DNA of 64,000 bases, from NCBI GenBank assembly GCA_902570695.1, contig CACFZE010000001.1, forward strand, positions 124,001 through 188,000, read 5' to 3'. The notes below the pieces were generated by a model. The model searched no databases, was not told where the DNA came from, and saw nothing but the letters and a program-made list of their open reading frames with translations. Source of the stretch: an uncultured Pelagibacteraceae bacterium (GTDB taxonomy: Bacteria; Pseudomonadota; Alphaproteobacteria; Pelagibacterales; Pelagibacteraceae). This document shows positions 20,177-23,607 of the stretch, one piece after another. How positions within the stretch are numbered: the first letter of the stretch is position 1; each line of letters opens with the position of its first letter. A program made the position numbers and the translations under genes.

Positions 20177-20782
20177 GTGTCTACCACTGTTCCCTATTAC
20201 GAGGATTTTTCCGAAATAAAAAAGAAAATTTGGTTAATGTTAACTGATGCAGTTACTAATAGATCGTCTTCTTTTAGAATACCTGTATTTTCATGTGGAA
20301 GTGAAAGCGATATCGAAAGTAGAATTGTTGTTCTTAGAAAATCAGATGAACAAAATAATTTAGTGCAATTCCACAGTGATATTAGATCTGACAAAATTAA
20401 AATCTTAGAAAAAAATCCTAATTCTTCAATGTTATTTTATGATAAAGATGAAAAAATACAGGTTAGATTAAAAGTTGAGGCAATTATTAATCACAATAAT
20501 GATATAACAAAACAATCTTGGGAAAAAACCCAACATATAAGTCGTAAATGTTACTTAGTAGATAATGGACCAGGTACAGAGTCAGATATTCCAACATCTG
20601 GTTTAAAACCTGAATTAGATAATTTTGATTACACAAAAGAACAAAGCGAAGAAGGATATAAAAACTTTACTGTTATACAGTGTAAAATTAAATCTATCGA
20701 ATGGCTATATTTAGCTGCAAAAGGTCATCGTAGAGCTAGATTTGACATTGATAGTAATAAAGATACTTGGTTGGTACCATAA
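20177..20782 (+). CDS. Pyridoxamine 5'-phosphate oxidase-like FMN-binding protein
   Basis: PNPOx-like split-barrel sequence (RIVVLRKSD, VQFHSDIRSDKIKIL, EWLYLAAKGHRRARF); GTG start. Confidence 0.75.
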   Translation: MSTTVPYYEDFSEIKKKIWLMLTDAVTNRSSSFRIPVFSCGSESDIESRIVVLRKSDEQNNLVQFHSDIRSDKIKILEKNPNSSMLFYDKDEKIQVRLKVEAIINHNNDITKQSWEKTQHISRKCYLVDNGPGTESDIPTSGLKPELDNFDYTKEQSEEGYKNFTVIQCKIKSIEWLYLAAKGHRRARFDIDSNKDTWLVP

Positions 20783-20907
20783 TGAAAAAATATGAAGCTA
20801 TGGTTTTGTCGTGTATGGATCCAAGGTTTCAGCCAAAAGTATTTAATTATTTAGTGATCTTTTGGATTTCTATTATATTCTTTATTAGCCTGTTCGTTAT
20901 TAAATAA
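20782..20907 (+). pseudogene. 5' remnant of a beta-carbonic-anhydrase-like gene (MKKYEAMVLSCMDPRFQPKVFNYL...)
   Basis: ATG overlaps the preceding stop (TAATG); CxDxR-type CMDPRF motif; frame runs into the tail of the opposite-strand gene at about 20851 and stops at 20905-20907. Confidence 0.6.
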
Positions 20908-21798
20908 TTTCATAACTCCGGTACCGTTTCTGTCCCAATAAGTAAACTTACATCCAGATCCACCACTCCTATAGTTCCACTTACCTTTTTTAAGATCGCT
21001 TGCCTGTTTTTCTCTAAGTTTAACAAGTTTTTTGTGATTATATTTTCCCCATTCGTTCAAACATATTAACTTAAAAGGATCGTAAGGATCTTTTGACGTT
21101 GGCGTTAGATAGACTGAGTCTTCTCCTTTTGGACAACCTTCGACGTCATGAACATAAGCTTTTCCAAAAAACATATGTTTTGCATCAGTATCTTGTCCAC
21201 TTTTAAAATGAGCTTTTTTACTCATTCCAGGTACACAAGCAAAACCTCCTCCCATTGCATGATGTACTTCATGAAGAGCTGTTTTAACCATGTTATTTAT
21301 ATTTTTATTGTATTTGCTTTTAAGAAACATTGATGCCATTCCTACACCACCTTCTCCACCATCTTGGCTAGTTACATCAGCAAAAGTAAAATAAACTTTT
21401 TTTGGATTATTAAATCCATTTAACCAAAGGTAAGCACGATAGTTATTATTTATATGTTTGTGAAGTTCTTTTCTTTTTTTATCTAATCTTATGAAGGTAA
21501 CATCTAATTTTCCATCTTTTCGATAATCGTACTTATATTTTTTTACACCTGAGGACCCTTTTGTTTTTTTACTAAACTTTTCAACAAGAGCGTTCATTTT
21601 GTTAGCATATTCCTCAATTTTTCCATTTATATCCAGCTCACGATCTTTATCACTGGCTGTCAGCATATATATGAAATGAATTTGATAATCATCAGTTACA
21701 TCTGGTTGATCTTCGAAAAATCTACCAGGTTTTTCATCTGATGCGAATAATGATGAACTAAATAGTGTGATTAATAATGCTAATAATATTTTTTTCAT
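20851..21798 (-). CDS. Putative secreted zinc metallopeptidase (HEVHHAMGG), paralog of 22105-23094
   Basis: Signal peptide; KPGRFFEDQPDV; HExxHxxGG; conserved Cys. Confidence 0.7.
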   Translation of the reverse strand: MKKILLALLITLFSSSLFASDEKPGRFFEDQPDVTDDYQIHFIYMLTASDKDRELDINGKIEEYANKMNALVEKFSKKTKGSSGVKKYKYDYRKDGKLDVTFIRLDKKRKELHKHINNNYRAYLWLNGFNNPKKVYFTFADVTSQDGGEGGVGMASMFLKSKYNKNINNMVKTALHEVHHAMGGGFACVPGMSKKAHFKSGQDTDAKHMFFGKAYVHDVEGCPKGEDSVYLTPTSKDPYDPFKLICLNEWGKYNHKKLVKLREKQASDLKKGKWNYRSGGSGCKFTYWDRNGTGVMKLFNNEQANKEYNRNPKDH

Positions 21799-22085
21799 AA
21801 TCCTTTTATAATTATATTGGTCCCTTCTGAATTATCCAATCTTATTTTTTTTATTGGTTTGTATTCTTCTGAATTATACCATTCCAAAGCCCTCTCATAA
21901 CTTGGAAATTTTAGGACTATTATTCTTGGAAATTTAGTTTCACCATCAAATATTTGATATTCACCATTTCTAACCAAAAACTCTCCATTAAATTTTTTTA
22001 CAATTGGATTAACTTTTTCAATATACTCTTTATAATTTTCTGGATTGGTTACTCTTAATTGTGCAATTACATACCCTGCTGACAT
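21795..22085 (-). CDS. DUF1330 family protein
   Basis: YVIAQLRVTNPENYKEYIEKVNPIVKKFNGEFLVRNG; FPSYERALEWYNSEEY. Confidence 0.85.
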   Translation of the reverse strand: MSAGYVIAQLRVTNPENYKEYIEKVNPIVKKFNGEFLVRNGEYQIFDGETKFPRIIVLKFPSYERALEWYNSEEYKPIKKIRLDNSEGTNIIIKGL

Positions 22086-22104
22086 ATCAGAATAATTTTT
22101 TCAC

Positions 22105-23094
22105 TTAATTCCTTTGAAATATACCAAATTCTTCTTCCCATGGAGCTTCTACGTCGTCTCGTGCATAAAAACAATCTCCGCCTTCACCTCTATCATAAAT
22201 ATTTTCATAATTATGTTTTGTAAATTTCCATTTTTCATTTGGCATACAAGTAACTTCAAAAGGATCAAAAGGTGTATCTGATGTAGGTGTAAAATAAACA
22301 CTGTCCTGCATGTTTGGACAAGTTTTATTATTATGACCCCAATAGTCATCATTCTTTGGATCTAAAGTATGATTTGTTCCATCACCCGATCTACTCATCA
22401 TGTCTTTTGTTTTTTTAGTATTGTGTCCTTCAGTAAAATTTGGTGAACATTTATAAATTCCACCCATAGCATGTAAAATCTCGTGTAAAATAAAATAACC
22501 AACCTCTTTATTATTAAGTGGGTATTTTTTTTGATGTTTAGAAAATACACTAAAAATTGGAAATCCACCAGAAAATGGCCAATCTTTATGAGTAAAATCT
22601 CCAAAGTTAAAATATATTTTTTTAGGATTGTTCATTCCGTTATTAATAATGGATCTTCCAAAGACATTTCCACAACTACCCCACTTAGACTTTTTCATTT
22701 CTTTCTTGGTTCTGTTTATTCTAAGAAAAGTAATATCTAACTTTCCATCTTTACGTCTATCCCATTTTAATTTCTGACCTACTCCATTATTAAAATTTGA
22801 TTTCTTGTTTGCTTTAGCAGTTGTTTTTAAAATCCATTTATCAGCAATTTCAACCCATTTTTCTAACTCTCCATTTATGTCTCCCTCTTTATCTTTGGAG
22901 TCTTTTAATAAAGTATAAACAATGTGAACTTGGAAATCATCGTTAACATCAGGCTGATCCTCAAAATACCTTCCTGGTTTTTTGTCACTATCTAAAATAA
23001 CTTGTGTTGTATCGCCATCATAACATTTGTCAGCATAAACATTTGAAATTGAGTTAAGTAAAAAAATGATTGATAATAAAATTGTTTTTTTCAT
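22105..23094 (-). CDS. Putative secreted zinc metallopeptidase (HEILHAMGG), paralog of 20851-21798
   Basis: Signal peptide; KPGRYFEDQPDV; HExxHxxGG followed by a DMM segment; DSVYFTPTS shared with the paralog. Confidence 0.7.
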   Translation of the reverse strand: MKKTILLSIIFLLNSISNVYADKCYDGDTTQVILDSDKKPGRYFEDQPDVNDDFQVHIVYTLLKDSKDKEGDINGELEKWVEIADKWILKTTAKANKKSNFNNGVGQKLKWDRRKDGKLDITFLRINRTKKEMKKSKWGSCGNVFGRSIINNGMNNPKKIYFNFGDFTHKDWPFSGGFPIFSVFSKHQKKYPLNNKEVGYFILHEILHAMGGIYKCSPNFTEGHNTKKTKDMMSRSGDGTNHTLDPKNDDYWGHNNKTCPNMQDSVYFTPTSDTPFDPFEVTCMPNEKWKFTKHNYENIYDRGEGGDCFYARDDVEAPWEEEFGIFQRN

Positions 23095-23607
23095 TTAAAA
23101 TATTGATTTTGAATAACGTTTCCAATTATCTTGGTAATGTTTTGCGTTTTCTGTTATTTTTCCTATCTCCTCATCAGTAAGTTTTCTAACTACTCTTCCT
23201 GGAGCTCCAACTACTAATGAGTTGTCTGGAATTTCTTTGTTTTCAGTTATTAATGCTTTTGCACCAATGATGCAGTTTTTACCTATTTTTGCATTATTTA
23301 AAATGACAGCTCCAATACCTATTAAACTATTGTCTCCAATTGTACATCCATGAAGCATAACGATATGACCGATAGTTACGTCTTTACCAATTCTTAAAGG
23401 GCAGCCTGGGTCAGTATGTAGAACGCTCCCATCTTGAACATTCGAACCTTCTCCAACATGAATGTTTTCGTTATCCCCTCTAATTACAGCATTAAACCAA
23501 ACACTGGAGTTTTTTTCTAAAGTTACATCTCCAATTATAGTTGCATTTGGTGCGACCCAATTTTCGCCAGAGTTTTTTGGTTTTTTATCTTCCAAATCGT
23601 AAAACAT
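23095..23607 (-). CDS. Gamma carbonic anhydrase family protein
   Basis: Hexapeptide repeats, NAVIRGDNENIHVGEGSNVQDGSVLHTD, GHIVMLHGCTIGD. Confidence 0.9.
   Translation of the reverse strand: MFYDLEDKKPKNSGENWVAPNATIIGDVTLEKNSSVWFNAVIRGDNENIHVGEGSNVQDGSVLHTDPGCPLRIGKDVTIGHIVMLHGCTIGDNSLIGIGAVILNNAKIGKNCIIGAKALITENKEIPDNSLVVGAPGRVVRKLTDEEIGKITENAKHYQDNWKRYSKSIF

Follow-up and report, generated by a model that had tools for sequence, protein, structure and literature searches.

The A/B locus

The window, by which we mean the whole stretch of 64,000 nucleotides from an uncultured Pelagibacteraceae bacterium that was analysed, carries on its minus strand two related open reading frames, A and B, separated by a DUF1330 gene (Table 1). 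This is the arrangement given in a preliminary description of the same DNA. A and B are paralogs, sharing 38% identity over 282 aa in a pairwise comparison (E 2e-56), and every segment that the description had listed as common to the two proteins was found in both. They are the only copies in the source genome, where no third copy was found. Their origin by recent duplication in this genome was rejected, since A and B belong to separate old clades in the tree.

The stop codon of the DUF1330 gene overlaps the start of A by 4 bases, while the gene itself lies 19 bases downstream of B. Judging from this spacing, the gamma-carbonic-anhydrase-like gene, B, DUF1330 and A probably form a single transcription unit.

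Table 1. Features of the A/B locus (positions in the window; residue numbers refer to the respective protein).
Feature	Positions	Strand	Description
PNPOx-like gene	20177-20782	+	Pyridoxamine-phosphate-oxidase-like, named from sequence; conserved slot border
ORF A	20851-21798	-	315 aa; predicted exported metzincin-like peptidase, A-type, without canonical Met-turn
A C222	21133-21135	-	Second invariant Cys, from alignment
A H197	21208-21210	-	Predicted displaced third zinc ligand, from positional His scoring
A C188	21235-21237	-	Invariant Cys, from alignment
A HEVHH (H176-H180)	21259-21273	-	Predicted zinc ligands 1 and 2 plus catalytic Glu, from alignment
DUF1330 gene	21795-22085	-	96 aa; PF07045, E 4.5e-30
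ORF B	22105-23094	-	329 aa; predicted exported metzincin-like peptidase, B-type, Met-turn-like DMM
B C259	22318-22320	-	Second invariant Cys, from alignment
B D231-M-M233	22396-22404	-	Met-turn-like segment; D[IVLM][ML] in deep branches and B-types
B H224	22423-22425	-	Predicted displaced third zinc ligand
B C216	22447-22449	-	Invariant Cys after HExxHxxG, probable disulfide, from alignment
B HEILH (H204-H208)	22471-22485	-	Predicted zinc ligands 1 and 2 plus catalytic Glu, on predicted active-site helix; invariant in 40/40 members
gamma-Carbonic-anhydrase-like gene	23095-23607	-	Named from sequence; conserved slot border, abuts B on its upstream side

The signal peptides that had been proposed for both proteins agree with a reading of the N-terminal sequences: each has a Lys-rich start, a hydrophobic core and an A-x-A-like end (SLFA/S, NVYA/D). 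We infer from these features that A and B are exported, either to the periplasm or to the outer surface. Both genes are under purifying selection, with dN/dS values of 0.06-0.17 for A and 0.11-0.17 for B.

An uncatalogued protein family in two alphaproteobacterial orders

Searches with A and B gave no significant match in Pfam, NCBIfam, PHROGs, PADLOC or the PDB sequences. By means of an iterative profile over the fetched loci (designated L with a number), we collected 129 distinct homologous ORFs. When 40 members of the family were compared with Pfam and NCBIfam, nothing scored above threshold and no peptidase cut-off was passed, in line with the earlier suggestion of a possible new metallopeptidase family. 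The best Astacin score, that of a distant homolog, was 17.8 bits against a cut-off of 22.5. Searched against the PDB, the family profile matched only MMP-14 and small Streptomyces zinc proteases, at sub-significant E-values of 1.7-1.9 and in register at the HExxH motif. A weak profile match to a streptococcal agglutinin receptor was rejected, as it was below significance and lay outside the catalytic part. Among open-licence papers, we found no literature on the family in SAR11 (Pelagibacterales). The A/B family is real, conserved and previously uncatalogued in the curated libraries searched.

Within Pelagibacterales, 61 of 248 sampled genomes carry the family in a patchy pattern, many of the carriers falling into one other bacterial family of the order (f2), and a search of relatives yielded carriers in 43/101 genomes. 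Related genes are also present in a second alphaproteobacterial order (32/107 genomes), while a 398-genome sample of the phylum contained no further carriers. Genomes of Pelagibacterales and of the second order measure about 1-1.6 Mb. In the tree, second-order members (L104; L105 and L106) nest among Pelagibacterales members, which suggests transfer between the orders. Contamination is an unlikely source of these sequences, because weak-scoring matches of the L105/L106 type recur in several second-order genomes. Neither viral homologs (phage tblastn with B; scans of viral contigs with A, B and the family alignments) nor plasmid homologs (plasmid search with a distant homolog) were found, and a phage or plasmid carrier of the genes was dropped for this reason.

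Conserved residues and the predicted zinc site

The alignment of 40 members has a mean column identity of ~25%. In the numbering of the distant homolog L058, its invariant residues are D57, R62, D66, D69, H77, D92, D120, D128, F131, R133, H257, E258, H261, C269 and C310, and G264 and H277 are, as aligned, at least 90% conserved. The HExxHxxG zinc helix of the metzincins is accordingly represented by an invariant HExxH and a Gly present in at least 90% of the members. In shuffled versions of A and B, HExxHxxG arose in 21 and 16 of 20,000 sequences, or ~0.1% each. The canonical third ligand of HExxHxxGxxH/D is replaced, as already noted in the preliminary description, by F in A (HEVHHAMGGGF) and by Y in B (HEILHAMGGIY).

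A conserved His following the conserved Cys had been put forward as a substitute for this ligand. When residue positions were scored instead of alignment columns, a His was found 8-20 residues past the first conserved Cys in all 40 members. It sits 16-28 residues past the second His of HExxH, where the usual spacing is six, and remains the candidate third ligand. Soon after it, 25/40 members show a D-[IVLM]-[ML] segment, namely the deep branches, the B-types and two long variants. The Met-turn-like DMM reported for one copy stands for B, and the D-[IVLM]-[ML] pattern is shared by the deep branches, but in its strict form this pattern is missing from copy A and most A relatives, whose loop after HExxH also differs strongly.

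Counted beyond the first 28 residues, the number of Cys is even in most members, which agrees with the disulfides proposed earlier; the count for B of the window appears odd only because it leaves out a Cys at residue 24. Taken together, the invariant HExxH and Cys residues, the downstream His and the even Cys counts fit an exported, disulfide-stabilised zinc enzyme.

Predicted fold and comparison with known metzincins

We obtained AlphaFold2 models of B (17 sequences, pLDDT 70.8, pTM 0.73) and of L058 (40 sequences, pLDDT 82.7, pTM 0.81). In the model of B, strands and helices succeed one another as in the upper subdomain of a zincin, HExxH falls on helix 195-209, and the C-terminal part is of low confidence. 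A Foldseek search of the PDB with this model returned nearly exclusively metzincins, the best being OgpA (E 2.2e-4, probability 1.00), followed by Amuc_1438 and then by TACE, ADAMs, fragilysins, adamalysins and mirolysin. The L058 model retrieved the same list of metzincins, with a best E-value of 1.3e-3 and none below 1e-3. The two models thus lend weight to the metzincin resemblance first noticed in the HExxHxxG motif. Query-normalised TM-scores to metzincins are modest, at about 0.3-0.36, and for this reason we call the predicted fold metzincin-like and go no closer.

The nearest parallel to the predicted zinc site is found in the leishmanolysin-type peptidases (M8, PF01457). Their layout consists of HExxHxxGF, a displaced third His and then an acidic-x-Met segment. 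The third His and the Met-turn serve as markers of M8 (PMC6899020). Like M8, the A/B family has an HExxHxxGF-like motif and a putative third His displaced by an inserted loop, and in B and the deep branches the displaced His is followed by acidic-x-Met in the M8 order, after a shorter insert. The bacterial M8 homologs that we fetched for comparison contain HEMxHxLGF, a long insert, HW-x-E and ELM; their third His is separated from HExxH by a much longer insert, which lacks the invariant Cys of the A/B family. PF01457 is absent among the matches listed for the 40 members. With hhalign, the family aligned to M8 with a probability of 59.6, confined to 22 columns in the active-site helix, and to astacin with a probability of 9.9, whereas M8 and astacin aligned to each other with 65.7 over 106 columns. 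The distance between the A/B family and M8 is therefore no smaller than that between M8 and the astacins.

Other metzincins share different parts of the picture. The O-glycopeptidases OgpA and Amuc_1438 of Akkermansia muciniphila are exported metzincin-type zinc peptidases, as predicted for A and B, and give the best fold matches of both models. OgpA, however, has the canonical HExxHxxxxxH ligands H205, H209 and H215 with the Met-turn at M231 (PMC7518263), while the third His is displaced in the A/B family, and identity is about 10-17% at the TM-scores given above. The astacins (M12A, PF01400) are linked to the family by a weak Pfam match at the HExxH region of one distant homolog (E 0.0029), but possess HExxHxxGxxH. 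Archaemetzincins (M54) are metzincins that likewise have a conserved Cys beside the zinc motif (PMC3427221); their pattern, HExxHxxGxxHCx4CxMx17CxxC, combines a canonical third His with a four-Cys arrangement absent from the A/B family. In the features compared here the family resembles a metzincin, but since it departs from the strict HExxHxxGxxH rule and its Met-turn is not universal, we placed it in no named family.

A small variable slot

Comparison of positions 20783-23094 of the window with loci L033-L056 and L122-L136 revealed a small variable slot in Pelagibacterales, which is empty, contains DUF1330 only or holds diverse exported-protease cassettes. The slot is empty in L123, L124, L125, L131 and L134, and in L123 the border genes abut. 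In L122 it contains only DUF1330 and a short ORF, between flanking proteins that are 97-99% identical to those of the window. In some relatives, B stands beside a different A-type, with 47% instead of 95-97% identity. Elsewhere the slot is occupied by long A-types (~440 aa), by secreted proteins with an HEYFH motif, by MORN-repeat proteins bearing HELTH or HELVH, by a membrane protease resembling PrsW or by an alpha/beta hydrolase. The A/B slot is swapped, multiplied or lost among close relatives. Extracellular proteases had been called unexpected in a streamlined osmotroph, an argument weakened by a family that is common, if patchy, in Pelagibacterales and that shares its slot with other exported proteases.

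Synonymous divergence of B is 0.13-0.19, against 0.39-0.76 for the adjacent carbonic-anhydrase-like gene in the same genomes, and the lower value for B suggests exchange by recombination; the other flanking genes span a wide range (0.06-0.99). DUF1330 was rejected as a functional partner of the peptidases, as it is not beside the pair in L040-L053 and occurs without peptidases in L122, L126 and L129. It is a passenger of the slot and no obligate partner.

A B-type gene lies within a Liv-type branched-chain amino-acid ABC transporter operon (L055:1753-8521), where its neighbour encodes a secreted protein that weakly matches glycosyl-hydrolase-10.

Proposed activity and alternative explanations

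From the conserved residues and the models, we consider A and B likely to be zinc endopeptidases that are exported, stabilised by disulfides and built on a metzincin-like fold; they belong to a family absent from Pfam and NCBIfam. Both proteins would be exported by Sec, after which their Cys pairs would be oxidised. One zinc would be held by the two His of HExxH and by the third His displaced downstream, behind a Cys-anchored loop, and the Glu of HExxH would activate a water molecule for peptide-bond hydrolysis. Such a site would resemble the leishmanolysin arrangement with a shorter insert. Zinc binding and catalysis are accordingly attributed to both copies as predicted properties. Their targets would most likely be external or envelope proteins, cleaved for nutrition or surface remodelling, and the cassette would probably be exchanged between strains by homologous recombination in its flanks and, occasionally, between orders.

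It is quite unlikely that A and B are remote, diverged members of a named metzincin family (M8 leishmanolysin, M12A astacin, M11/OgpA-like or M43). The M8 order of motif, displaced His and acidic-x-Met, the hhalign probability against M8 and the Astacin match of one homolog would all agree with such an origin, but the M8 match, limited to the active-site helix, does not exceed the one between M8 and astacin, the astacin alignment is poor, none of the 40 members passes a peptidase cut-off, and the loop of the family is shorter than that of M8 and bears an invariant Cys. Rather improbable, too, is the retention of a zincin fold, perhaps with bound metal, in a binding protein, an inhibitor or a pseudopeptidase, at least in copy A. 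The A-types do lack the Met-turn-like segment, and their loop after HExxH is very different. Pseudopeptidases, however, usually lose the catalytic Glu and the zinc His, while the Glu and three His are present in 40/40 members, A-types included, and dN/dS is low. That HExxH arose by chance in unrelated secreted proteins without a common enzyme function is exceedingly improbable: HExxH alone is a short pattern, but the longer motif appears in only ~0.1% of shuffled proteins, its conservation is strict over two orders and already contradicts this explanation, and two models match metzincin folds.

Compatible with the assignment as peptidases, yet doubtful, is a role of the cassette in antagonism or defence instead of nutrition or housekeeping, with A and B acting as effectors released from the cell or as proteases directed against phages. 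The fast turnover of genes, the variety of proteases in one slot and the tandem divergent paralogs speak for such a locus; against it, there was no PADLOC match, no viral homolog and no evident pattern of immunity genes. The suggestion that the pair might be toxins likewise found no support. The B-type gene in the branched-chain amino-acid transporter operon of L055 leans towards peptide nutrition, and the fast exchange of slot contents towards an external target that varies. With low confidence, we favour nutrition or surface processing over antagonism.

SAR11 bacteria count among the most abundant cells of the ocean and are commonly described as consumers of small dissolved molecules. Far more tentatively than the enzyme assignment, we raise the possibility of a metzincin family of two orders in which the third ligand would lie behind a disulfide-anchored loop and the A-types would work without a Met-turn, and which would be the main content of a slot devoted to exported proteases and exchanged rapidly, allowing an otherwise streamlined "osmotroph" to change the set of external or surface proteins that it cleaves. 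If this possible scenario were true, widespread exchangeable exported peptidases would mean that many SAR11 also cleave proteins on the cell or beyond it, which would bear on the turnover of dissolved organic nitrogen, on surface variation and on the niches of strains. In enzymology, the series from deep members with a Met-turn-like segment to A-types without one would offer a natural probe of how much change the metzincin zinc site tolerates.

Other proteins of the slot and of related loci

The exported HEYFH proteins occupy the same slot at L033:7178-8098 (+), L047:3300-4169 (+) and L133:3834-4703 (-). They have no Pfam peptidase match and possibly represent another undescribed zinc-peptidase family. 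A PrsW-family intramembrane protease (L039:6309-7169 (+), PF13367, E 1.1e-22) replaces the A gene in one slot. An exported family of ~200 aa with the segment RFIPLELFTGG is a recurrent companion of the peptidase genes (L042:3503-4132 (+), L047:417-1004 (+), L040:6926-7531 (+)); its L040 copy has no Pfam match.

Exported proteins that combine MORN repeats with a HELTH/HELVH domain at the C-terminus are encoded in the slot at L036:5997-7688 (+) and L128:2369-4057 (+), Pfam confirming the MORN repeats in L036 only. Long A-types with an extra N-terminal domain of ~130 aa occur at L035:3746-4993, L047:1949-3271 and L010:1063-2388. Two members of the alignment match DUF4189 weakly (E 0.014), and a similar Cys pattern is present at the N-terminus of the L036 MORN protein.
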